Assembly (NCBI RefSeq): GCF_002979435.1
Contig: NZ_PCOV01000005.1
Span: 62,001 to 126,000, forward strand
DNA length: 64,000 nucleotides
Source: Microbacterium sp. MYb66
Lineage (GTDB): Bacteria > Actinomycetota > Actinomycetes > Actinomycetales > Microbacteriaceae
Reading direction: 5' to 3'
The notes beneath the pieces are model-generated. The model saw only the letters and a program-made list of their open reading frames with translations. It was not told where the DNA came from and did not search any database. How positions within the stretch are numbered: position 1 is the first letter of the stretch; the number at the start of each line of letters is the position of its first letter. Both the position numbers and the translations under genes were made by a program. Shown piece by piece: positions 30,172 through 42,930 of the stretch.

Positions 30172-31152
30172 CTAGGACCGAGCAGCCCGCCGCGCCTCCC
30201 ACCCCGTGCGCACCATCTCGTCGACCGTGTACCGCATGGTCCAGTCGAGGTCACGGGCGGCGAGCTCACCGGTCGCGACGATGCGGTCGGGATCTCCGGG
30301 GCGCCGGGGTCCGATCTCGGGGATGAAGTCGATGCCGGTGACGCGGGCGACGGCATCCATGATCTGCTTCACGCTGAGCCCGTCGCCGGAGCCGAGGTTG
30401 TAGGCCGCCTCGATCGGGCGGCCGTCGGCGAGGCGCTGCGCGGCGGCGACGTGCGCCGCGGCGATGTCGCCGACGTGCACGTAGTCGCGCACGTTCGTGC
30501 CGTCCGCGGTGTCGTAGTCGTCGCCGAAGATCTTCGGGGTCTTCCCCGCGAGCAGCGCCTCGAACACGATCGGGAAGAGGTTGTGCGGGCTGACGTCGTA
30601 GACGGTCGGGTCGGCCGAGCCCACCACGTTGAAGTACCGCAGCGAGGTGTGGCGCAGCGGCCGGGCGGAGTCCGCCGTGGCGATCGCCTGGTCGCGCAGC
30701 AGCCACTCGCCGATGAGCTTCGACTCTCCGTACGGGCTGGCCGGCTTCTTCGCGGTGTCTTCCACGACGAGCGGGACGTCGGGGGTGCCGAACACCGCGG
30801 CCGAGGAGGAGAACACGATGTTCGCGACCCCGGCGGCCTCCATCGCCTCGAGGATGATCCGGGTGCCCTCGACGTTCTGCGCGTAGGTATGCAGCGGGCG
30901 CTGCACCGAGACGCCGGCGTACTTGTAGCCTGCGACGTGGATCACGCCGTCCGCGTGGTGATCGCGCAGCGTCTTCTCGACGAGCGCGCGGTCCAGGATG
31001 CTGCCCTGCACGAACGGCACGCCCTCGGGCACGAACGACGGGACGCCGCTGGACAGGTCGTCGAGCACGACCGGGGTGAGGCCGGCATCCGCGAGGGCCC
31101 GCACGACGTGAGCACCGATGTAGCCGGCGCCGCCGGTGACGATCCAGGACAT
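30172..31152 (-). CDS. galE: UDP-glucose 4-epimerase
   Basis: A 326-residue short-chain dehydrogenase-type epimerase interconverting UDP-galactose and UDP-glucose. NAD-binding TGGAGYIGAHVVRAL starts at residue 6, the catalytic pair is in SPYGESKLIGEW (Tyr about 144, Lys about 148), and SLRYFNVVGSA and YNLGSGDGLSVKQ mark the substrate side. It is the last gene of galTKE, 48 nt after galK, with its own SD (GGAGAGG before ATG 31152). UDP-galactose may also be needed for cell-wall glycans. Confidence 0.95.
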   Translation of the reverse strand: MSWIVTGGAGYIGAHVVRALADAGLTPVVLDDLSSGVPSFVPEGVPFVQGSILDRALVEKTLRDHHADGVIHVAGYKYAGVSVQRPLHTYAQNVEGTRIILEAMEAAGVANIVFSSSAAVFGTPDVPLVVEDTAKKPASPYGESKLIGEWLLRDQAIATADSARPLRHTSLRYFNVVGSADPTVYDVSPHNLFPIVFEALLAGKTPKIFGDDYDTADGTNVRDYVHVGDIAAAHVAAAQRLADGRPIEAAYNLGSGDGLSVKQIMDAVARVTGIDFIPEIGPRRPGDPDRIVATGELAARDLDWTMRYTVDEMVRTGWEARRAARS

Positions 31153-31200
31153 TGCTTTCCTCTCCTGCCGCGGCGTCGTCGCGGCCCGTGGATCATTCTG

Positions 31201-32391
31201 TCAGGCGTCGCGGTGCGCGCCGGCGGAGGGGGCGACGGTGAACAGCAGGGGAGCGGCGAAGCCGGATGCCGCGAACGCCGCGTCGACGGCATCCGATACG
31301 GCGTCGACGGCATCCTGCTCGAGGAGGGCGATCGCGGCACCGCCGAAGCCGCCACCGGTCATGCGCGCGCCGAGGGCTCCGGCGGAGAGCGCGGTGTCGA
31401 CCGCGGTGTCGAGCTCGGGGGTCGAGATCTCGAAGTCGTCGCGCATCGACACGTGGGAGGCGACGAGCAGATCCCCGATCGCACGCACACCCTCCTCGCG
31501 GAGCAGCCGCACCGTGTCGAGCACACGCTGGTTCTCGGTGACGATGTGGCGCACGCGACGGAAGGTCACATCGTCCATCAGCTCCTCGGCGTGCGGCAGA
31601 TCGGCGATCGACACATCGCGCAGTGCCGGCACGCCCAGGAGAGAGGCGCCCAGCTCACAGGATGCTCGGCGCTCGCGGTAACCGCCCGTCGAATGCGCGT
31701 GCTTCACGCGGGTGTCGATCACGAGGATCGCGAGTCCGGCCGCGGCGATGCCGAGGGGCACGAGCCGGGTCTCCAGCGAGCGGCAGTCGAGGAAGATCGC
31801 GGTGTCGGGCTCGCCGAGCATCGACGCCATCTGGTCCATGATCCCCGTGGGAGCGCCGACCGCTTCGTTCTCGGCGCGTCGGCCGACGCCGGCGAGGGCG
31901 GTGCGATCGAGGTCGGTGCCCCACAGGTCGTTCAGGGCGGATGCCGTCGCGCCTTCGATCGCGGCGGAGGAGGAGAGACCGGCCCCCACCGGCACGTCGG
32001 AGGCGATCGCGATGTCGAGCGCCTCGAACGGGCCGGATCCGGATGCCGCCCGGCGCAGCGCCCACGCGACCCCGAGCGGGTAGGCGGCCCAGTCCGGGAC
32101 GGCCGGAGGCGTGCCGGGTGCGGTGGGGAAGAGACCGTCGAGTTCGTCGAGGCCCACTTCGACCGGCGCGTCGGCGAACGTCGAGCCGACCATGACCCGG
32201 CCGCGGGCGTCAGCGCGGAGCCCGACCGCGGCGACCGTGCGCTGCGGGATGGCGAACGGCAGCACGAAGCCGTCGTTGTAGTCGGTGTGTTCGCCGATGA
32301 GGTTGACGCGTCCCGGTGCCGACCAGAGCCCGTCGGGCTGGCGTCCGGTGAGGGAGGTGAACAGCTCTCGGGCGTCGCGGGCGGCGGTCAT
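31201..32391 (-). CDS. galK: Galactokinase
   Basis: A 396-residue GHMP kinase that phosphorylates galactose at C1. The galactokinase signature GRVNLIGEHTDYNDGFVLPF is at about 28-47, the ATP loop VPVGAGLSSSAAIEG at about 131-145, and the C-terminal GHMP motif is GARMTGGGFGGAAIAL. ATG 32391 overlaps the galT stop (ATGA), which sets the start; the longer frame continues through galT out of phase. It works between GalT and GalE in the Leloir pathway. Confidence 0.95.
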   Translation of the reverse strand: MTAARDARELFTSLTGRQPDGLWSAPGRVNLIGEHTDYNDGFVLPFAIPQRTVAAVGLRADARGRVMVGSTFADAPVEVGLDELDGLFPTAPGTPPAVPDWAAYPLGVAWALRRAASGSGPFEALDIAIASDVPVGAGLSSSAAIEGATASALNDLWGTDLDRTALAGVGRRAENEAVGAPTGIMDQMASMLGEPDTAIFLDCRSLETRLVPLGIAAAGLAILVIDTRVKHAHSTGGYRERRASCELGASLLGVPALRDVSIADLPHAEELMDDVTFRRVRHIVTENQRVLDTVRLLREEGVRAIGDLLVASHVSMRDDFEISTPELDTAVDTALSAGALGARMTGGGFGGAAIALLEQDAVDAVSDAVDAAFAASGFAAPLLFTVAPSAGAHRDA

Positions 32392-33590
32392 GCGGACGCT
32401 CCTGCGTCGGACCGGTCCTGCGAGGCGCGCTCGATCGCTTCGCGCAGGCGCGCGGCCCCCACCTCCGGCGGCACCTCGGCGGCCCACGCCCCCATCGCGG
32501 CCTCCGACCCGGCGAGGAACTTCAGCTTGTCGGCGGCCCGGCGCGGGCTCGTCAGCTGCAGGTGCAGGCGCACGGTGTCGCGTCCGACGTGCACGGGAGC
32601 CTGGTGCCAGGCGGCGATGTACGGGGTCGGGGTCTCGTACATCGCGTCGACACCGCGGAGCAGACGCCGGTACAGCGGGGCGAGCTCGTCGCGCTCGGCA
32701 TCCGTCGTCTCGGCGAAGTCGGGCACGTGGCGGTGCGGCATCAGGTGCACCTCGAGAGGCCACCGTGCGGCGAAGGGCACGAACGCGGTCCAGTGCTCGC
32801 CGCGGAACACCACCCGCTCCGAGGCCTGCTCGGACTCGAGGATCCGTTGGAACAGGTCGGGTGCGGTCCGCTCGATCGACTCCCGCACACGGGCGGTGCG
32901 CGGCGTCACGTACGGGTACGCGTAGATCTGCCCGTGCGGGTGGGGCAGTGTCACCCCGATCGCCTCGCCGCGGTTCTCGAACGGGAAGATCTGCTCGATG
33001 CCCGGCAGCGTCGAGATCACGGCGGTCCGGTCGGCCCAGGCCTCGATGACCGTGCGGGCCCGGGTGACGGACTGCGTGCCGAACGAGCCTGCGTGCTCGG
33101 GGCTGAAGCAGACGACCTCGCAGCGGCCGACCGCGGTGCGGGTGCGGCCGAGCCCGAGGTCGGCGAGGTCGTCGAGCCCGCGTGGGGCGTCCGGCGCCTG
33201 CGGGGCGGTGCCGACCGCCTCGGCGAGCGCGGGGCCGAAGGCGGGCGACCGGTTCTCGAACACCGCGACGTCGTAGCGCGACGGAACCTCCGACGGGTTG
33301 CCCGGAGTCTGCGGGGCCAGCGGGTCGGCGTCCGCGTCGGGCATCATGACGCGGTTCTGCCGGTTGGCGGCGACGGTGATCCAGTCGCCGGTGAGCACGT
33401 CGAGGCGCATGGTCGCGGTGTCGGGGCGAGGGTCGAGGACGCGGGCGTCGATCGAACGTGCGGCTCCGAGCGCGGTGCCGGGGTCGTCGTAGTAGATCAG
33501 GTCGCGCCCGTCGGCGAGGGTGGTGGCGCGTTTGACCACGCCGGCTCCGAGCGTCTCGGTGCGCAGCTCAGGAAGACCGTCCGTGTTCAC
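32388..33590 (-). CDS. galT: Galactose-1-phosphate uridylyltransferase
   Basis: A 400-residue enzyme exchanging UDP-glucose and galactose-1-phosphate. The active-site HxHxQ is seen in VTLPHPHGQIYAYP (about 224-237), and the UDP-binding RSPAFGP and later HHxH-type segments (EVHLMPHRHVPDF) are present. The open frame extends to 33749, but GTG 33590 lies exactly 6 nt after the TACCAT -10 of a strong promoter, so the mRNA is probably leaderless and upstream codons would not be transcribed. An operator palindrome includes the start codon itself. Confidence 0.93.
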   Translation of the reverse strand: MNTDGLPELRTETLGAGVVKRATTLADGRDLIYYDDPGTALGAARSIDARVLDPRPDTATMRLDVLTGDWITVAANRQNRVMMPDADADPLAPQTPGNPSEVPSRYDVAVFENRSPAFGPALAEAVGTAPQAPDAPRGLDDLADLGLGRTRTAVGRCEVVCFSPEHAGSFGTQSVTRARTVIEAWADRTAVISTLPGIEQIFPFENRGEAIGVTLPHPHGQIYAYPYVTPRTARVRESIERTAPDLFQRILESEQASERVVFRGEHWTAFVPFAARWPLEVHLMPHRHVPDFAETTDAERDELAPLYRRLLRGVDAMYETPTPYIAAWHQAPVHVGRDTVRLHLQLTSPRRAADKLKFLAGSEAAMGAWAAEVPPEVGAARLREAIERASQDRSDAGASA

Positions 33591-33628
33591 GTAAACATGG
33601 TAGGCGCAGCGCCGTGATAACGTCAACA
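33584..33628 (-). promoter_or_regulatory. galTKE promoter with two LacI-type operators
   Basis: On the minus strand: TTGACG (33626-33621), 18-nt spacer, TACCAT (33602-33597), then 6 nt to the GTG start of galT. Two related 14-mers overlap it: TGTTGACGTTATCA (33628-33615) covers the -35, and TGTTTACGTGAACA (33597-33584) covers the transcription start and the galT start codon. They agree at 11 of 14 positions, both have the central ACGT typical of LacI-family sites, and their centres are 31 bp apart, about three helical turns. Confidence 0.7.
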
Positions 33629-33688
33629 CTGCGGAGTTGTGAACCGAGTCGCGGGGCAGGTTGCGCCGCAGATCCGGACGGAGGCGCG

Positions 33689-34720
33689 GTGGTCGAGAGC
33701 AGAGACGACCAGGTCGCAGGAGGCGGGCCCGTTCGGCCGCGCGCGTCATCCGGGCGCGTCTCGATGGCCATGGTCGCCACTCGCGCCGGAGTCTCCGGAC
33801 AGACCGTGTCGCGCGTCGTCAACGGCAGTCCGCGCGTCGACCCCGCCACCCGTGCCCGCGTCGAGGGGGCGATGGCCGAACTCGGCTACCGTCCGCATCG
33901 TGCCGCCCGTGCTCTGCGCACCGGCCGCTCGCAGACCATCGGCCTCGTGGTCACCACACTCGCCACGGTCGGCAACTCCCGGATGCTGCAGGCCACGGCC
34001 GAGGCGGCGGCGGAACGCGGATACGCCCTCACCCTCGTCACCGCGGCCGATGGCGTCGCCGAGGCGTTCGAGCGCCTTGTCGAACAGGAGGTCGACGGCG
34101 CGATCGTCCTGAACGAGGCGTCGGCGCTCGTGTCGGGTGCCCGGCCACCTGCGGGGCTGCGTCTCGTCGTGGTCGACGCGCCCACGGATGCCGGCTTCAG
34201 CTCGGTGCACAGCGACCACCGGGGTGGCGCGGCCGAGGCCACGGCCCGACTTCTGGCGCTCGGCCACGACACGGTCCACCACCTCGCCGGCCCCGCCGAG
34301 TCCTTCGCGGCGGCGGAACGGGAGCGGGGATGGCGGGAGACGCTCGTCGCCGCGGGCATCCGTGCGCCCGCCGTCGTCCGCGGCGATTGGAGCTCGGACT
34401 CCGGGTTCGCGGCGGGGGCGGGCCTGGCCGCGGCATCCGCGGTGTTCTGCGCCAACGACCAGATGGCGCTCGGGCTGCTCCGCGCGTTCTCCGAGTCCGG
34501 CCGCCGCGTGCCGGAGGATGTCGGCGTCATCGGCTTCGACGACGTTCCGGATGCCGCGAACTACCGCCCGCCGCTGACCACGGTCCGTCAGGACTTCGAG
34601 GCTCTCGCCCACCGCGCGGTCGAGGTGCTGGTGGCGGAGATCGAAGGATCTTCGAGGTCTGCGCGATCCTCCGTGATCCCGACGTCCCTGGTCGAACGCG
34701 CCAGCGCCGCCGCGGGCTGA
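33689..34720 (+). CDS. LacI-family regulator of the gal operon (probable)
   Basis: A 343-residue repressor, divergent from galT. HTH AMVATRAGVSGQTVSRVVNGSPRV (about 27-50), hinge helix PHRAARALRTGRSQTIGLVV, then the periplasmic-binding-like ligand domain with SDHRGGAAEATARLLALGHD and the terminal VGVIGFDDVPDAANYRPPLTTV signature. About 25 extra residues precede the HTH from GTG 33689, which has GGAGG 4 nt upstream; GTG 33614 would lie inside the gal operator region. Galactose or an allolactose-like sugar is the likely inducer. Confidence 0.88.
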   Translation: MVESRDDQVAGGGPVRPRASSGRVSMAMVATRAGVSGQTVSRVVNGSPRVDPATRARVEGAMAELGYRPHRAARALRTGRSQTIGLVVTTLATVGNSRMLQATAEAAAERGYALTLVTAADGVAEAFERLVEQEVDGAIVLNEASALVSGARPPAGLRLVVVDAPTDAGFSSVHSDHRGGAAEATARLLALGHDTVHHLAGPAESFAAAERERGWRETLVAAGIRAPAVVRGDWSSDSGFAAGAGLAAASAVFCANDQMALGLLRAFSESGRRVPEDVGVIGFDDVPDAANYRPPLTTVRQDFEALAHRAVEVLVAEIEGSSRSARSSVIPTSLVERASAAAG

Positions 34721-34735
34721 GCCGCCGCGGGCTGA
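34706..34735 (+). repeat. 15-bp tandem duplication at the lacI 3' end
   Basis: GCCGCCGCGGGCTGA occurs twice back to back, so the stop codon and the four preceding codons are duplicated and a second in-frame TGA follows the first. A third, degenerate copy (GCGGCCGCGG) comes next and gives the end of the transcript hairpin-forming potential. Confidence 0.8.
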
Positions 34736-34864
34736 GCGGCCGCGGCCTCCTTCCTTCTCCGGCACGACTACCCGATCCGGTACGGCCGCACGACCGATCC
34801 GACGACTCCCGCGCCCGTCCGTGTCCTGCTCGGGCAGGGGTTCCCGGCTTCCCGATACCGCCGG

Positions 34865-34911
34865 TTGCGCTCTGCCGGTGTCTCATGTCATGATCTCGGA
34901 AAGCGTTTTCC
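34865..34911 (+). promoter_or_regulatory. Promoter and LacI-type operator of the Gfo/Idh-DUF993 operon
   Basis: TTGCGC (34865-34870), 18-nt spacer and CATGAT (34889-34894) form a plausible promoter. GGAAAGCGTTTTCC (34898-34911) is a 14-bp palindrome with one mismatched pair and a central CG, typical of LacI-family operators, and it covers the predicted transcription start. The LacI-type protein at 39089 is the best candidate to bind it. The rest of 34736-34973 shows no gene. Confidence 0.6.
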
Positions 34912-34973
34912 CGATTCCGAGGATCTCCGGGACGAGAAGGCGCGAACGACCTCCGCGAGAGAAACGGAACACG

Positions 34974-36137
34974 ATGGCACAGGCGAACACCCGCGAGATC
35001 GGGATCATCATGAACGGCGTCACGGGACGCATGGGCTACCGGCAGCATCTGGTGCGCTCGATCCTCGCGATCCGCGACGAGGGGGGCATCGAGCTCCCCG
35101 ACGGCTCGCGCATCACGGTCAAGCCCCTGCTCGTCGGCCGCAACGAGGCCACCCTCGCCGAGCTCGCGGCGAAGCACGACATCGCGGACTGGACGACCGA
35201 CCTCGACGCAGCCCTCGCCGACCCGCAGTGGGAGATCTACGCCGACTTCCTGGTGACCAAGGCACGCGCCTCCGCGATCCGCAAGGCCATCGCCGCAGGG
35301 AAGGCGATCTACACCGAGAAGCCCACGGCCGAGTCCCTCGAGGAGGCGCTCGAGCTCGCGCGGCTCGCCCGCACCGCCGGTGTCAAGACCGGCGTCGTGC
35401 ACGACAAGCTCTACCTGCCGGGCCTGCAGAAGCTCAAGCGCCTGATCGACTCCGGCTTCTTCGGACGCATCCTCTCGGTGCGCGGCGAGTTCGGCTACTG
35501 GGTGTTCGAGGGCGACTGGCAGCCGGCGCAGCGCCCGAGCTGGAACTACCGCACGGAAGACGGCGGCGGCATCATCACCGATATGTTCCCGCACTGGAAC
35601 TACGTGCTCGAGAACCTCTTCGGCGAGGTCAAGAGCGTCTACGCGCAGGCCGCCGTGCACATCGCTGATCGCTGGGACGAGAAGGGCGAGCGCTACACCG
35701 CCACCGCCGAGGATGCGGCGTACGGCATCTTCGAGATCGAGGGCGGCGTGATCGCCGAGATCAACTCCTCGTGGACCGTGCGCGTGAACCGCGACGAGCT
35801 CGTCGAGTTCCAGGTCGACGGCACGCACGGCTCGGCCGTGGTCGGCCTGTTCGGCGCGAAGATCCAGCCGCGCAACGCGACGCCCAAGCCGGTGTGGAAC
35901 CCCGACCTGGAAGACACCCGCGACTACGACGCGGACTGGCAGAAGGTGCCGACCAACGACGTGTTCCTCAACGGCTTCCGCCAGCAGTGGGAGGAGTACC
36001 TGGTCTCCTACGTCGAGGGCACCGACTACCCGTTCGACCTGCTCGCGGGCGCTCGCGGCGTGCAGTTCGCCGAGGCCGGTCTGACCTCCAGCGCCGAGGG
36101 CCGCAAGATCGCCCTGTCGGCGCTGAGCCTGGACTGA
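34974..36137 (+). CDS. Gfo/Idh/MocA-family oxidoreductase
   Basis: A 387-residue NAD(P)-dependent sugar dehydrogenase-like protein. The Rossmann loop is GIIMNGVTGRMGYRQHLVRS (about 9-28), with TGR rather than the more usual GxG. The family EKP motif is intact (IYTEKPTAESLEEA, about 118-131), and GGGIITDMFPHWNYVLENLFGE covers the conserved DxxxHxxD-like catalytic region. It starts a four-gene run with DUF993 and two TIM-barrel isomerases. It probably oxidises a sugar or inositol-like compound to a keto derivative. Confidence 0.87.
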   Translation: MAQANTREIGIIMNGVTGRMGYRQHLVRSILAIRDEGGIELPDGSRITVKPLLVGRNEATLAELAAKHDIADWTTDLDAALADPQWEIYADFLVTKARASAIRKAIAAGKAIYTEKPTAESLEEALELARLARTAGVKTGVVHDKLYLPGLQKLKRLIDSGFFGRILSVRGEFGYWVFEGDWQPAQRPSWNYRTEDGGGIITDMFPHWNYVLENLFGEVKSVYAQAAVHIADRWDEKGERYTATAEDAAYGIFEIEGGVIAEINSSWTVRVNRDELVEFQVDGTHGSAVVGLFGAKIQPRNATPKPVWNPDLEDTRDYDADWQKVPTNDVFLNGFRQQWEEYLVSYVEGTDYPFDLLAGARGVQFAEAGLTSSAEGRKIALSALSLD

Positions 36138-36141
36138 CGGG

Positions 36142-37314
36142 ATGAGCACCCTTCGACTCCTGGCCGCCGACGGAGCGGCGACGGACGCGGCTCTGAACGA
36201 GGGCGGCTCCTATGCGCGGCCGGCATCCGCGCTGCGCAGCCGGGTCGCCTACGCGGCCGCGCACGTCGTGCCGAAGACGTACGCCGACAACACCCCGGGG
36301 CAGCCCGCCGACATCGACTGGGATGCCACGCTCGCGTTCCGCCGGAACGTGTACTCGTGGGGACTCGGCGTCGCCGATGCCATGGACACCGCGCAGCGGA
36401 ACATGGGGCTGGATGCCGCGGCCACCCGCGAGCTGATCGCCCGCAGTGCCGAGGTCGCCCGCGAGGAGGGCGGATCGGTCGTGGTCGGAGTCAACACCGA
36501 CCACGTCGCCGAGACGCACATCTCGCTCGATCAGGTGATCGCCGCCTATACCGAGCAGCTGCACTTCGCCGAGGAGCAGGGGGCCGGCCCCGTGCTGATG
36601 GCCTCGCGGCACCTGGCCCGTGCGGCGACGGATGCCGCGGACTACCGCCGCGTCTACCGCGAGGTGCTGTCGCGGGCGACCGTGCCCGTGGTGCTGCACT
36701 GGCTGGGCACGGCCTTCGACCCTGAGCTCGCCGGCTACTTCGGCGCGGAGGACTGGCAGACGGCATCCGAGGTCCTCCTGCAGGTCATCGAAGAGAACCC
36801 GGGCACGGTCGCGGGCGTGAAGATGAGCCTGCTGAACGCGGAGTCCGAGATCTCGGTGCGCGAACGGCTCCCCGAGAGTGTGCACATGTTCACCGGCGAC
36901 GATTTCAACTACGTGAGCCTGATCGGCGGTGACACCGTCGGCGACGGCGCGGGGCATTCGGACGCACTGCTGGGGGCGTTCGCCGCGATCACCCCGGTCG
37001 CGTCGGCGGCGATCCAGGCGCTGGATGCCGGCGACGCGGAGGCCTACCTGCGCATCCTCGGTCCGACCGAGGAGCTCAGCCGTCAGGTGTTCGCCGCGCC
37101 CACCTTCTATTACAAGACGGGCGTCGCGTTCCTCGCCTGGCTGAACGGCCACCAGCCCGCATTCCAGATGGTGGGCGGGCTGCACTCCGCGCGCAGCCTG
37201 CCGCACCTGAGTCGGATCGTCGAGCTGGCGAACGCGTCGCTCGCGCTCGAGCAGCCCGACCTCGCCCGCGAACGATGGCACGGGATGCTGCGCCTGAACG
37301 GGGTGGACGCATGA
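36142..37314 (+). CDS. DUF993 / dihydrodipicolinate-synthase-superfamily protein
   Basis: A 390-residue protein of the DUF993 family, distantly related to class I aldolases of the DapA fold. Visible landmarks are YSWGLGVADAMDTAQRNMGL, VVVGVNTDHVAETH, VPVVLHWLGTAFDPEL, GVKMSLLNAESEISVR and MFTGDDFNYVSLIGGD; the lysine in GVKMS is in the position expected for a Schiff-base residue, but this is inference. It starts 4 nt after the Gfo/Idh stop and overlaps the next gene (ATGA). An aldolase or dehydratase step on the keto-sugar made by its neighbour is plausible. Confidence 0.8.
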   Translation: MSTLRLLAADGAATDAALNEGGSYARPASALRSRVAYAAAHVVPKTYADNTPGQPADIDWDATLAFRRNVYSWGLGVADAMDTAQRNMGLDAAATRELIARSAEVAREEGGSVVVGVNTDHVAETHISLDQVIAAYTEQLHFAEEQGAGPVLMASRHLARAATDAADYRRVYREVLSRATVPVVLHWLGTAFDPELAGYFGAEDWQTASEVLLQVIEENPGTVAGVKMSLLNAESEISVRERLPESVHMFTGDDFNYVSLIGGDTVGDGAGHSDALLGAFAAITPVASAAIQALDAGDAEAYLRILGPTEELSRQVFAAPTFYYKTGVAFLAWLNGHQPAFQMVGGLHSARSLPHLSRIVELANASLALEQPDLARERWHGMLRLNGVDA

Positions 37315-38177
37315 CCGCCGTCGATCCGCGTCTGTCGATCAACCAGGCGACCATCAAGCACGCCGACCTGGCCACGGCGCTGCGAGTCACCGCCGATGCC
37401 GGCATCCAGGCCATCGGCCTCTGGCGGGAGCCCGTGAACGAGGTCGGCCTCGACACCGCCGCACGGATGCTCGCCGACTCGGGCCTGCGCTTCTCTACCC
37501 ACTGCCGCGGCGGGTTCTTCACGCTCCCGGCAGGGTCGGAGCGGGATGCCGCCCTCGACGACAACCGCCGGGCCATCGAGGAGACCGCGACGCTCGCCGC
37601 CGCCGGTGCCGAGGGCTCCACCGCGGTGCTGGTGCTCGTCGCCGGCGGCCTGCCCGCGGGGTCACGCGACCTGATCGGGGCGCGCGAGCGCGTGCGCGAT
37701 GCGATCGGCGTGCTGGTTCCCGAGGCGAAAGCGGCCGGAGTCACACTCGCGATCGAACCGCTGCATCCGATGTACGCGTCCGACCGGGCCGTCGTCTCGA
37801 CGCTCGGCCAGGCGTTGGACATCGCCGCCGACTTCGAGCCCGAGGTCGTCGGCGCGGCGGTCGACACGTTCCACATCTGGTGGGATCCGCAGGTGCTCGA
37901 CCAGATCGCGCGGGCCGGTCGAGAGGGTCGCATCGCCACCTATCAGGTGTGCGACTGGAAGACGCCGCTCGCCGCCGACGTGCTGCTCTCGCGGCACTAC
38001 ACCGGCGACGGGGTCATCGACTTCGGCTCGCTCACCCGTGCCGTCGTCGCGACCGGCTACGACCGCGACATCGAGGTCGAGATCTTCAACGCCGACATCT
38101 GGGCGGATGCTCCCGACCGGGTCGTGCGCCGCACCGCGGAGACCTTCGCCGCCGCGGTCTCCCCGCACCTCGGCTGA
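37311..38177 (+). CDS. Sugar phosphate isomerase/epimerase (AP-endonuclease-2 TIM barrel)
   Basis: A 288-residue TIM-barrel protein of the xylose-isomerase-like group. Metal and substrate residues are suggested by LAIEPLHPMYASD (Glu about 147), VVGAAVDTFHIWWDPQV (Asp and His) and the late glutamate in RDIEVEIFNAD. ATG 37311 overlaps the DUF993 stop by ATGA, so these two products should be made in step. Members isomerise or epimerise keto-sugars, inosose or hydroxypyruvate; nothing here fixes which. A second, weakly similar barrel follows at 38296. Confidence 0.83.
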   Translation: MTAVDPRLSINQATIKHADLATALRVTADAGIQAIGLWREPVNEVGLDTAARMLADSGLRFSTHCRGGFFTLPAGSERDAALDDNRRAIEETATLAAAGAEGSTAVLVLVAGGLPAGSRDLIGARERVRDAIGVLVPEAKAAGVTLAIEPLHPMYASDRAVVSTLGQALDIAADFEPEVVGAAVDTFHIWWDPQVLDQIARAGREGRIATYQVCDWKTPLAADVLLSRHYTGDGVIDFGSLTRAVVATGYDRDIEVEIFNADIWADAPDRVVRRTAETFAAAVSPHLG

Positions 38178-38295
38178 GAGTGCGTCACACTTGTCGGAAG
38201 CAGGAACGGATGCAGGCCCCCAACGCGACTTCTGATCCGGCATCCGCGAATCGGCCGTGCATCCGTGCCTGCGGAGCGGCCCGGAGGATGACACC

Positions 38296-39060
38296 ATGAC
38301 CCGAATCCGTCCAGGACTCTGCTCGGTGACCTTCCGCGAACTCGCGCCGGAGCAGATCATCGCGCTCGCCGCGGATGCCGGGCTCGAGGCCATCGAGTGG
38401 GGCGGCGACGTGCATGTGCCGCCGGGCGACGTGGTCCGCGCCGCCGAGGTGGCCCGTGCCACCGCCGACGCCGGGCTCGCGGTCGCCTCGTACGGCTCGT
38501 ACTTCCGGGCGGGGGCGGACGAGCCTCTCACGCCCGTGCTCGACGCGGCGCAGGCGCTCGGAGCGGACCGGGTGCGCGTCTGGGCCGGCCGCACCGGCTC
38601 GGATGCGGCGACCGAGGCCGACGGAGCCGCCGTGGTCGCACGGCTCCAGGCCGCGGCATCCGAGGCCGAGGCGCGGGGGATCGGACTCGCCCTCGAGTTC
38701 CACTCCGGCACCCTCGCCGACACGGCCCCGGCCACCCTGCGGCTCCTCGCGGCGGTGGGGAGCCCCGCCCTCTCGACGTACTGGCAGCCGACCGTCGCGG
38801 CCTCGGTCGAGACCGCGCTCGCGGAGTACCGGCTGCTCGCGCCGCACACGAGTGCAGTGCACGTCTTCTCCTGGTGGCCGGAGCGGGATCGGCTGCCGCT
38901 GCGGGCGCGCGATGCGCTGTGGACGAGGTTCGCCGCAGCGGCGCGAGCGGAGGCGAGCCCACCGCGCGATGCGCTGCTGGAGTTCGTGCCGGGAGACGAC
39001 CCCGCGCTGCTGGCGGGAGAGGCCGCCGCACTGCGCGAGTACCTCGGGGCGCCTGCGTGA
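38296..39060 (+). CDS. Second TIM-barrel isomerase/epimerase family protein
   Basis: A 254-residue xylose-isomerase-like protein, shorter and more divergent than the preceding one. PGLCSVTFRELAPEQIIALA starts the barrel; IEWGGDVHVPPGD, LALEFHSGTLADTAPATLRLL and VHVFSWWPERDRLPLRAR carry probable metal-binding residues. ATG 38296 has GGAGG at 38283-38287. The 118 nt between it and the upstream gene contain no terminator that I can see, so the run from 34974 may be one transcript. It could open a ring or epimerise the product of the first barrel. Confidence 0.78.
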   Translation: MTRIRPGLCSVTFRELAPEQIIALAADAGLEAIEWGGDVHVPPGDVVRAAEVARATADAGLAVASYGSYFRAGADEPLTPVLDAAQALGADRVRVWAGRTGSDAATEADGAAVVARLQAAASEAEARGIGLALEFHSGTLADTAPATLRLLAAVGSPALSTYWQPTVAASVETALAEYRLLAPHTSAVHVFSWWPERDRLPLRARDALWTRFAAAARAEASPPRDALLEFVPGDDPALLAGEAAALREYLGAPA

Positions 39061-39075
39061 TGATGACCCGGGAAG

Positions 39076-39081
39076 TAGGCT
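39076..39081 (+). promoter_or_regulatory. -10 hexamer TAGGCT, leaderless start at 39089
   Basis: TAGGCT followed by 7 nt (CTGGGGC) and the ATG at 39089, giving the regulator its own promoter. Confidence 0.5.
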
Positions 39082-39088
39082 CTGGGGC

Positions 39089-40159
39089 ATGACCAAGCCC
39101 GCATCGTCCGCGGAGCGGCCATCCGCCTCGCGCGCCCGTCGTCACCCGCGGGGGGCAGCGCCCACGTTGCACGATGTCGCTCGCGAGGCCGGCGTATCCC
39201 TGGCCACCGCTTCGCGGGTGCTGAACGGCTCCGAGCGCAAGGTCGCCGAGTCGTTCCGCGAGCGGGTGGAGTCCGCGGCCGCCGAGCTCGGCTACACCGC
39301 CAACGTCTCGGCGCAGTCCACCGCCCGCGGCACCTCCCCGGTCATCGCACTTCTCGTCGCCGACATCGCCGACCCGTACTTCGGCCTGATCGCGTCGGGC
39401 GTCGCCCGCGGTGCCGACGAGCACGGGCTGGTCGTGACGATCGCGATCACGGAACGCGACCCGGAACGCGAGTCCCGCATCGTGCGTGCGCTCCGCGGCC
39501 AGCGCCCGCGCGGGCTGATCCTCGCGGCCTCCCGCACGCAGGAGCCGCGGGAGGCGGAGACCGCGCACGATCTCGCCGAGTTCGCCCGTCTCGGCGGACG
39601 GGTCGTCGCCTTCGGGCCGGACGGCGACGCGGAGCGCCGCATCGAGATCGACAATCGTGCCGCCGCTGAAGACCTCGGCCGGCGGATGGCGGGGCTCGGG
39701 TACCGTTCCGCCCTCGCGCTCGCCGCCGCGGAGGGCGTGCGCACCTCGGATGATCGCCTGGCCGGGTTCCGTGCCGGATTCGAGGCAGCCGGAGGCGTCG
39801 TCGCCGGCGTGCGGCGAGGCGACTTCCGACGCGAATCCGGAGCAGCGGACATGACGGAGGCCCTCGCCGACGGCGTGCCGGCGGGCACCCTCGTCTTCGC
39901 GATCAGCGATGTGGTGGCGATCGGCGCGATGTCCGCGATCCGCGATGCCGGGCGTGATGTGGGTGCCGACATCGCGGTGTGCGGCTTCGACGACGTGCCG
40001 GCGAGCAGCGATGTGACGCCGGCGCTGACGACCGTCCGCGTGCCGTTGAGCGAGGTCGGCTATCAGGCCTTCCGTGCGACGGTCGACGCCGACTGGGAGC
40101 AGCCTCCTCTTCCGCTCGAGGTCGTCGTGCGTGCGAGCACTCCCGGGATCACGGCGTGA
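39089..40159 (+). CDS. LacI-family regulator of the sugar cassette (probable)
   Basis: A 356-residue repressor: a basic tail, then HTH TLHDVAREAGVSLATASRVLNGSERKV (about 27-53), the hinge YTANVSAQSTARGTSPVIAL and a ligand domain (FGLIASGVARGADEHGL, CGFDDVPASSDVTPALTTVRVPL). It lies directly downstream of the two isomerase genes and is translationally coupled to glycerate kinase (GTGA). The palindrome at 34898-34911 upstream of the first catabolic gene is the most likely target. Confidence 0.88.
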   Translation: MTKPASSAERPSASRARRHPRGAAPTLHDVAREAGVSLATASRVLNGSERKVAESFRERVESAAAELGYTANVSAQSTARGTSPVIALLVADIADPYFGLIASGVARGADEHGLVVTIAITERDPERESRIVRALRGQRPRGLILAASRTQEPREAETAHDLAEFARLGGRVVAFGPDGDAERRIEIDNRAAAEDLGRRMAGLGYRSALALAAAEGVRTSDDRLAGFRAGFEAAGGVVAGVRRGDFRRESGAADMTEALADGVPAGTLVFAISDVVAIGAMSAIRDAGRDVGADIAVCGFDDVPASSDVTPALTTVRVPLSEVGYQAFRATVDADWEQPPLPLEVVVRASTPGITA

Positions 40160-41265
40160 CCCGGGTCGTTCTGGCCCCGGACAGCTTCAAGGGAACGATC
40201 ACGGCGGCGGATGCCGCGGCGGCGCTCGCCCACGGCTGGGCCGCGGTGGACCCCGACGCCGAGTTCGTCCTTCGCCCCATGGCGGATGGGGGAGAGGGCA
40301 CGGTCGCGGCCTTCGAGGCGGCGGTGCCGGGTGCCCGACGGATGCCGGTGGCGGTCGAGGGGCCGGCGGGCGCGGTCGTCGGATCCTTCTGGCTGCTGCT
40401 GCCTCCGACGGAGGACGCGCCGGAGGGGACCGCAGTCGTCGATCTCGGCTCGACCTCGGGCATCGAACTGCTGGATGAGCTGCGTCCGTGGGATGCCGAC
40501 ACCACGGGCCTCGGCCAGGCGATGGCTGCCGCACTCGACCACGGCGTCTCCCGGCTCGTGGTCGGCATCGGATCGAGTGCCTCCACCGATGGCGGCACCG
40601 GGATGCTCGCGGCGCTCGGCGCGCGGTTCCTCGATGCCGCAGGTGGTCCGGTCGCACCCGGCGCGCGCGGGCTGGCCGACATCGCCGCCGTCGACCTGAC
40701 GGCGCTGCGTGCTGCCCCCGAGGTGCGCGTGCTCACCGACGTCACCAACCCGCTCATCGGGCCGCGCGGGGCCGCCGCGGTGTTCGGTCCGCAGAAGGGG
40801 CTGCGCGCCGCGGAGGACATCGCGCTCGTCGACGAGGGTCTGCGGCGTCTCGCCGACCTGCTGGGACTCGACGCCGCGCTTCCCGGCAGCGGTGCGGCCG
40901 GCGGCACCGGCGGTGCTCTCGTCGTCTGGGGCGGTGTGCTCGCACCGGGCGCCGCCGCGGTGGCGGAGCTCATCGGTCTGACCGACGCGATCGCCGACGC
41001 CGACGTGGTGATCACGGGAGAGGGGTCCTACGACGGGCAGTCCGGCGACGGCAAGGTGCCCTCGTTCCTCGCCTCGCTCGCCGCGGATGCCGGAGCGGGC
41101 GCGATGCTCGCCGCCGGGCGCATCGCCGACGACGCCGACATGACCCCGTTCGCCGCATCCGCTTCCCTCACCGCGCTCGCCGGATCAGCCGAGGCTGCGC
41201 TCGCCGAACCCGCACGCTGGTTGCGCGAGGCCGGTGCCGTCCTGGCTCGCGCCGCCGCATCCTGA
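40156..41265 (+). CDS. glxK: Glycerate kinase
   Basis: A 369-residue class I glycerate kinase (GarK/GlxK family), forming 2-phosphoglycerate from glycerate. VVLAPDSFKGTITAADAAAALAHG opens the protein; RPMADGGEGTVAAF, VGIGSSASTDGGTGMLAALG and VITGEGSYDGQSGDGKVPS are strongly conserved in the family. GTG 40156 overlaps the LacI stop. Its inclusion suggests that the cassette's substrate is cleaved to a C3 unit such as tartronate semialdehyde or glycerate before entering glycolysis. Confidence 0.92.
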   Translation: MTRVVLAPDSFKGTITAADAAAALAHGWAAVDPDAEFVLRPMADGGEGTVAAFEAAVPGARRMPVAVEGPAGAVVGSFWLLLPPTEDAPEGTAVVDLGSTSGIELLDELRPWDADTTGLGQAMAAALDHGVSRLVVGIGSSASTDGGTGMLAALGARFLDAAGGPVAPGARGLADIAAVDLTALRAAPEVRVLTDVTNPLIGPRGAAAVFGPQKGLRAAEDIALVDEGLRRLADLLGLDAALPGSGAAGGTGGALVVWGGVLAPGAAAVAELIGLTDAIADADVVITGEGSYDGQSGDGKVPSFLASLAADAGAGAMLAAGRIADDADMTPFAASASLTALAGSAEAALAEPARWLREAGAVLARAAAS

Positions 41266-41266
41266 C

Positions 41267-41280
41267 GCGCGGCGCCGCGC
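41267..41280. terminator. Palindrome between convergent genes
   Basis: GCGCGGCGCCGCGC is a perfect 14-bp palindrome lying in the 21 nt between glxK and pgm, which converge. As RNA it would form a short GC-only hairpin in either direction. Confidence 0.4.
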
Positions 41281-41286
41281 TCGGAG

Positions 41287-42930
<1,644 letters not shown>

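Follow-up and report, generated by a model that had tools for sequence, protein, structure and literature searches.

The 64,000-nucleotide stretch of the soil-type actinobacterium Microbacterium sp. MYb66 analyzed here (hereafter the window) carries a cassette of six genes on one strand at 34974-41265, named G, D, X, Y, R, and K in their order (Table 1), and the conserved unit within it is smaller than six genes. This unit consists of a Gfo/Idh/MocA-type dehydrogenase (G), a DUF993 protein (D), and an AP_endonuc_2 barrel (X), while the second barrel Y is an add-on. Two points are new relative to the initial annotation of this region: G-D-X lies behind a conserved LacI-type operator, and the cassette is joined by transporter genes in some relatives. 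The cassette is real and widely conserved; it is related to the Gfo/Idh sugar-type catabolic operons and rests on a DUF993 protein with an altered active site. The gene set probably oxidizes a sugar-like or acid compound and then splits it into glycerate, and we consider the chance about even that G-D-X-(Y)-R-K forms an operon under LacI control that breaks down a small polyhydroxylated compound. More tentatively, DUF993 may represent a new class of Schiff-base lyases in the DapA fold, which would act on a keto polyol or keto acid and have no pyruvate-type carboxylate site, with G-D-X as the core of an undescribed glycerate pathway in Actinomycetota, Pseudomonadota, Gemmatimonadota, and Chloroflexota.

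The neighborhood of D was compared in 80 named loci, the best 80 of at least 590 confirmed relatives of D, and in 51 further loci (49 from Microbacterium and two from relatives), which partly overlap with the first sample. In 79 of the 80 named loci, D has G and X as its immediate neighbors; the scripted adjacency counts were 77 and 78, and the loci L119 (4-bp overlap) and L135 (shared G-D frame) were added by inspection. These 79 loci include 76 actinobacterial ones and one each from Chloroflexota, Gemmatimonadota, and a record labelled Vibrio; at the 80th, L109 in an unclassified bin, D stands alone. The further loci contain G, D, and X without exception (51/51), together with R in 45, K in 30, and Y in 15. 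Moreover, orthologues of G, D, and X were found in an identical set of 54 of 99 Microbacterium genomes (lists compared by eye) and were absent from the other 45 at the cut-offs used. Because the three genes share exactly the same genomes, the gene set goes beyond chance. For Y and R, a homologue within 6 kb of D was counted as a neighbor. Since Y was found in 8 of the 80 named loci and in the 15 further ones, it is an add-on to the unit. The initial annotation had set the co-occurrence of DUF993 with its flanking families as a test in advance, and this co-occurrence was found for the Gfo/Idh protein and one AP_endonuc_2 barrel; the second barrel, which it had included in the cassette, is no core part.

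Three side observations were made in these loci. In a Gemmatimonadota metagenome bin (L135:8648-11198), one open frame spans G and D; its linker resembles a repeat-like sequence that also occurs upstream of G, and it may be an inserted repeat and no true fusion. A cassette is also found under the title Vibrio cholerae strain 35D; its DUF993 protein (L078:10001-11107) shares 70% identity with D of the window, so the assembly is probably mislabelled or contaminated. And a Gfo/Idh-DUF6807 fusion protein is encoded near the cassette in some Actinobacteria (L092:12091-14169, L118, and L084), as assigned by Pfam for L092 and L084 and by clustering for L118.

The DUF993 protein D is a close relative of PDB 4DNH (E 2.8e-102, 47% identity), which is also the best structural match of its predicted model (pLDDT 92.9; VIA Z 55.8 over 381 residues). 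The model has an eight-stranded barrel that superposes on the DHDPS structures, the next matches in rank, with a VIA Z of about 31 (2.4 A over 287-292 residues; Foldseek probability 1.00), and the lack of a family from the list of structural matches is no evidence against that family. Together with a profile alignment, these VIA and Foldseek results bear out the placement of DUF993 in the DapA superfamily that had been proposed from the sequence. In this alignment (hhalign, probability 92%, residues 137-313), K227 of D aligns with the lysine that is invariant in four PF00701 proteins from the same genome, H186 pairs with the Tyr of LYxxP, and TGDD pairs with SGDD. K227 is thereby a candidate for the Schiff-base lysine on strand 6, and the GxKxS motif was found in 155 of 155 D homologues (overlapping samples).

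The fold and the lysine position are common to D and the class I aldolases and dehydratases of the DHDPS/DapA type, from which D differs in three respects. It is about 100 residues longer, the His of LHWLG takes the place of the Tyr of LYxxP, and the GTTGE loop is missing. This G-T/S-T/S-G-E loop after strand 2, which marks pyruvate-dependent aldolases, is present in three of the four PF00701 proteins of this genome; the carboxylate-binding motif G[TS][TS]GE was found in one of the 155 D homologues (L230), far from the position of the pyruvate-type loop. MDTAQR is found in 152 of the 155 and would lie at the end of strand 2 according to the order of secondary-structure elements, outside the profile alignment. 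The loop between GDDF and SDALLG ranges from 10 to 73 residues among the matched homologues, with 46-73 in L232-L235. D probably acts as a Schiff-base lyase that breaks a carbon-carbon bond in a ketone, one that is not a standard 2-oxo acid and would be bound in another way than pyruvate. Since the pyruvate-carboxylate loop is missing, a canonical 2-oxo-3-deoxy acid is probably not its substrate.

The title of 4DNH (S. meliloti SMc04132, DUF993) gives no function. SMc04130, the molecule name of the X relative 3JU2, has a locus number near SMc04132. In a table of one study, SMc04132, SMc04133, and SMc04135 are listed consecutively with values of -1.69, -3.65, and -1.23 (PMC12542648), and another study mentions SMc04134 as a transcription factor (PMC11387232). 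In literature mostly outside subscription journals, no paper was found that names DUF993, 4DNH, or 3OQB, and no relevant paper was found on 7VPF, 3JU2, or 3QC0 or on combinations of the cassette genes.

G is closely related to PDB 3OQB (E 4e-146, phmmer), an "Oxidoreductase" whose entry as listed names no substrate. It combines a Rossmann domain and a C-terminal domain with the EKP lysine and the D-x3-H motif of the Gfo/Idh/MocA family. The motifs E115-K116-P117 and D203...H207 are at least 95% conserved in 80 sequences and are presumably catalytic, as in the family. An identity as an inositol or levoglucosan dehydrogenase is not supported, the scores lying far below the cut-offs: G scored 63.1 bits against the IolG model (NCBIfam TIGR04380, cut-off 355) and 61.7 bits against the levoglucosan dehydrogenase model (NCBIfam NF052479, cut-off 650). 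The inositol (iol) and levoglucosan (lgd) operons pair Gfo/Idh with AP_endonuc_2 proteins, and they are not known to contain DUF993. A CarB/CarC-type subunit of the C-glycoside (car/dfg/dgp) systems was not found among the six genes by Pfam, with no dedicated model search. X is a close relative of PDB 3JU2 (E 1e-71). Its residues E149, D185, and E257 are conserved, and the third position of the quartet (Q212) is Gln in 78 of 80 sequences and His in two; the Glu-Asp-His-Glu residues at these positions are metal ligands in the family, and X has three of the expected four.

A LacI-type palindrome, GGAAAGCGTTTTCC, precedes G at 34898-34911. Across the 3.88 Mb of the genome it is the sole site that fits GGAAAGCGNTTTCC with one mismatch or none. 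Of 80 sequences (79 loci and the window), 75 have a site in the 320 bp before G that agrees with GGAAAGCGCTTTCC at 10 or more of its 14 positions, compared to a mean of 9.5 in 20 base shuffles. A site with at least 13 of 14 matches was found upstream of G in 49 of the 51 further loci, a count that is partly circular, since the patterns were drawn from such sites. In 68 of the 80 named loci and in the 45 further loci given above, the 6 kb around D include a LacI gene whose best match is R. The window contains another LacI gene, r, upstream of G, and its relatives (64-86% identical) in the same place have at least galT beside them in L188, L191, L194, and L197; the same pairing was found in L199, L206, L214, L227, and L232. 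The gene r is probably a regulator of the neighboring gal genes, outside the cassette. Most loci have a LacI gene along with the cassette, whereas r goes with the gal genes, so R is the likely repressor predicted to act at the palindrome. A regulon search for a distant transporter gave no other site within one mismatch of GGAAAGCGNTTTCC in this genome. A degenerate operator pattern gave two weak further sites in the genome, no more than the control, and at two mismatches there were 24 hits compared to 34 for the reversed-pattern control, which is no excess.

K scored 276 bits against NCBIfam TIGR00045 (cut-off 168) and also passed the Pfam cut-off, so it is a glycerate kinase of the PF02595 type. 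Such a kinase is present in 17 of the 80 named loci and in 30 of the 51 further ones. In Pseudomonadota, glycerate kinases of the DUF4147/MOFRL type lie near DUF993 in Paracoccus (L141), Erwinia (L143), Octadecabacter (L149), and Microvirga (L177), and L181 has a nearby glycerate kinase by annotation. We take the two kinase families to be mutually unrelated; K gave no BLAST match to the DUF4147/MOFRL kinases at E 1e-6. The fact that kinases of both families adjoin DUF993 in different phyla supports glycerate as the end product and is the best evidence for the glycerate outlet, which the initial annotation had deduced from K and which stands.

A plasmid sample was also analyzed. From 147 records of plasmids or megaplasmids, 60 of them listed, 23 were picked; they hold 24 loci, 22 of which are annotated. 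An aldehyde dehydrogenase is annotated in 10 of these 22 loci: in L138, L140, L142, L144, L149, L177, and L179, and across a regulator in L141, L173, and L181. These neighbors fit glyceraldehyde as the precursor of glycerate. The cluster on pAO1 of Paenarthrobacter nicotinovorans (L140) has G-D-K in common with the window and adds an ABC transporter and an aldehyde dehydrogenase above the NCBIfam AldH cut-off, whereas it has no X, an extra GMC oxidoreductase, and no LacI among its 13 listed genes.

In the proposed pathway, G would use NAD(P) to turn a secondary alcohol group of the substrate into a ketone, and X, probably a metal-dependent barrel, would epimerize or isomerize the keto compound. 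D would form a Schiff base through K227 and then cleave a carbon-carbon bond by a retro-aldol reaction. The C3 fragment would become D-glycerate, either directly or through glyceraldehyde and an aldehyde dehydrogenase, and K would phosphorylate the glycerate for lower glycolysis, with R repressing the operon at 34898-34911. No tested function was found for any of the G-D-X enzymes, which speaks against this pathway and makes the reaction order a guess; the order of oxidation, isomerization, and aldol cleavage given in the initial annotation is not supported as stated, since nothing fixes it. The initial scheme is supported in part: its architecture and its glycerate outlet hold, but a need for Y is not borne out. 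Several other observations weigh against the pathway as well. K is missing from 63 of the 80 named and 21 of the 51 further loci, the cassette in the window contains no aldehyde dehydrogenase, and 12 of the 22 plasmid loci, whose gene tables are incomplete, have no annotated one. The DapA superfamily also includes dehydratases and hydratase-aldolases. The transporters found nearby are of several kinds (NMT1 ABC, sugar ABC, tripartite tricarboxylate, and MFS), so the substrates may vary from lineage to lineage. X is missing beside D in L138, L140, L144, L177, L179, and L250, and the G orthologue is missing in L138, L139, L142, L144, L146, L149, L174-L177, and L179, which indicates that neither is strictly needed for D.

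The alternative that survives best, though we regard it as unlikely, is that D is a Schiff-base dehydratase, with the carbon-carbon cleavage elsewhere and K serving another branch. The same fold and lysine allow either chemistry, and the KDG and 5-keto-4-deoxyglucarate dehydratases belong to the same superfamily as DapA. The aldehyde dehydrogenase that an aldol product calls for is, as stated, unannotated in 12 of the 22 plasmid loci. But the glycerate kinases of two families near DUF993 need a C3-forming cleavage somewhere.

Less probable still is an oxidize-eliminate route for glycosides. Here G would oxidize C3 of the glycoside, X would split off the aglycone by elimination, D would hydrate or rearrange the 3-keto sugar, and the kinase K would act on glycerate set free as the aglycone, for example from glucosyl- or mannosylglycerate. 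G has weak matches to levoglucosan dehydrogenase (61.7 bits) and DgpA (E 4e-6), some members of the Microbacteriaceae and their relatives have GH95, GH38, GH42, GH51, or GH35 genes close to the cassette, and a GMC oxidoreductase stands by the pAO1 cassette, its counterpart on a related plasmid being annotated as 2-keto-gluconate dehydrogenase. These GH families vary, however, and each occurs in a minority of loci (GH42 in 8/51, GH38 in 5/51, and GH51 directly upstream in 10/51). The core contains no second Gfo/Idh protein to reduce the 3-keto sugar, and the levoglucosan route is not known to need a lysine enzyme of the DapA type.

We hold an oxidative pentose pathway for xylose or arabinose to be improbable. 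Here G would make a lactone and D would be a 2-keto-3-deoxypentonate aldolase or dehydratase. A GH51 arabinofuranosidase gene stands immediately upstream of G in 11 loci, and a 2013 study by Mihasan et al. reportedly describes an oxidative xylose pathway on pAO1, presumably that of the cluster which holds G-D-K (L140). Yet the cassette contains no sugar-acid dehydratase, D does not have the GTTGE motif of pyruvate aldolases, and the distribution of AraA is unrelated to the cassette: AraA was found in 46 of 54 genomes with the cassette and in 38 of 45 without it. L-arabinose, which was considered as a substrate on account of GH51 beside G, is disfavored, since AraA is unrelated to the presence of the cassette and absent from the window genome. 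AraA is present in all 10 genomes of the 51-locus sample in which GH51 stands immediately before G. The cassette thus neither stands in for the isomerase route nor goes along with it. The window genome gave no match to AraA_N, which was found in 84 of the 99 Microbacterium genomes.

Two units brought together by chance, G-D-X and either R-K or Y-R-K, which answer different signals, would fit the 118-bp gap between X and Y and the loci that have no R or K. This reading is very unlikely given that a LacI gene accompanies D in most loci and that several lineages have K or a different glycerate kinase in the vicinity of DUF993.

Returning to the catabolic pathway through glycerate, the transporters of the relatives give clues to its substrate. 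In 8 of the 80 named loci (Rhodococcus, Rhodococcoides, Nocardia, two Mycolicibacterium, Micromonospora, Pseudoclavibacter, and Microbacterium murale) and in 3 of the 51 further ones, the cassette lies with genes for a related NMT1-type ABC transporter. The binding proteins are 49-72% identical to the Rhodococcus query in the named loci, a near-identical copy aside, and 61-67% identical in the three further loci. Among solved structures, a formylaminopyrimidine-binding protein comes closest to the Rhodococcus protein (E 4e-17). GGAATACGCTTTCC stands shortly before the NMT1 transporter genes in all three such further loci, and in L217 and L222 it was found at other places too. L148, L173, L178, and L180 have genes of a tripartite tricarboxylate transporter in the neighborhood of D. 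Transporters of both types commonly carry small, often anionic compounds, and by analogy with these relatives our best guess is a small, sugar-like, perhaps anionic substrate. In Microbacterium, a sugar ABC transporter and GH51, GH42, GH38, GH95, or GH35 genes are often found near the cassette, which weighs against one simple answer for the substrate, and in some of these loci operator-like sites precede both operons. The cassette in the window holds no transporter, as had been noted initially. The nine PF09084 matches in the window genome are at best about 31% identical to the cassette-linked NMT1 proteins (one 70-residue match reaches 36%), and the window strain seems to have no orthologue of this transporter.

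The plasmid loci also contain variants of the gene set. An orthologue of G (54-67% identity) lies beside D or within 3 kb of it in 13 of the 24 loci (L140, L141, L143, L145, L147, L148, L172, L173, L178, L180, L181, L249, and L250), and the other 11 have different dehydrogenases or none near D. Examples are SDR proteins in L142, L149, and L174-L176 and distant Gfo/Idh proteins in L138, L144, L177, and L179. In Paraburkholderia caribensis, a protein annotated as ThiF family and shikimate-dehydrogenase-like by Pfam (L139:7032-7853) precedes DUF993 in place of G. A CoA-transferase occurs with DUF993, without an adjacent G orthologue, in L138, L139, L142, L146, L149, L174-L177, and L179, and 8 of these 10 loci add an enoyl-CoA hydratase or acyl-CoA dehydrogenase; they are perhaps a variant pathway with an acyl-CoA product. 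In Pseudomonadota, an enolase-superfamily dehydratase is annotated beside DUF993 in L145, L172, L178, and L180. Pfam supports two of the four, and the one compared with the PDB gave no match, so this annotation was not used as a firm clue.

The features of the window are listed in Table 1. The host genome is 3.88 Mb in size and 99.81% complete, and the top named matches to its DUF993 protein are from Microbacterium. The six same-strand genes of the initial annotation are present with the Pfam families it had claimed. Its span of 34865-41265 is right at the end but not at the start, since 34865 is the beginning of an open frame and G begins with the ATG at 34974. G and D are separated by 4 bp, D and X overlap by 4 bp, X and Y are separated by 118 bp, Y and R by 28 bp, and R and K overlap by 4 bp. 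G-D-X and R-K are tightly coupled, given these gaps and overlaps of 4 bp, and the gap between X and Y may hold a second promoter. A sigma-70 consensus scan of 34700-41700 found no promoter, with 0.3 expected, which is too few to decide. The Leloir galactose genes galE, galK, and galT (minus strand) and r adjoin the cassette at 30172-34720, the gal names being taken from the sequence without a family search. Homologues of all three gal genes adjoin the cassette in L188, L194, L197, and L214.

Table 1. Genes and predicted operator of the DUF993 cassette and the adjacent regulator in the window.
Feature	Position	Strand	Basis or remark
r, other LacI-family regulator, outside the cassette	33614..34720	+	Pfam; longest ORF, true start may be later
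LacI-type operator GGAAAGCGTTTTCC (predicted)	34898..34911	+	Starts 76 bp ahead of the G start codon
G, Gfo/Idh/MocA NAD(P)-dependent dehydrogenase	34974..36137	+	Pfam GFO_IDH_MocA; relative of PDB 3OQB
D, DUF993 (PF06187), DapA-superfamily barrel	36142..37314	+	Pfam 535 bits; relative of PDB 4DNH
X, AP_endonuc_2 (xylose-isomerase-like) barrel	37311..38177	+	Pfam 115 bits; relative of PDB 3JU2/3QC0/7VPF
Y, second, divergent AP_endonuc_2 barrel, accessory	38296..39060	+	Pfam 53 bits
R, LacI-family regulator, likely cassette repressor	39089..40159	+	Pfam LacI
K, glycerate kinase, PF02595 type	40156..41265	+	Pfam Gly_kinase 330 bits

DUF993 recurs in many Actinomycetota and plant-associated Pseudomonadota. 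It was not found in 14 well-known genomes searched as controls, which may explain why the family lacks characterization despite its wide recurrence. Each of the three core proteins has a close relative of solved structure (4DNH, 3OQB, and 3JU2). The operator, the NMT1 transporter of the relatives, and the glycerate kinase provide three routes to the substrate, which makes the DUF993 family directly testable.

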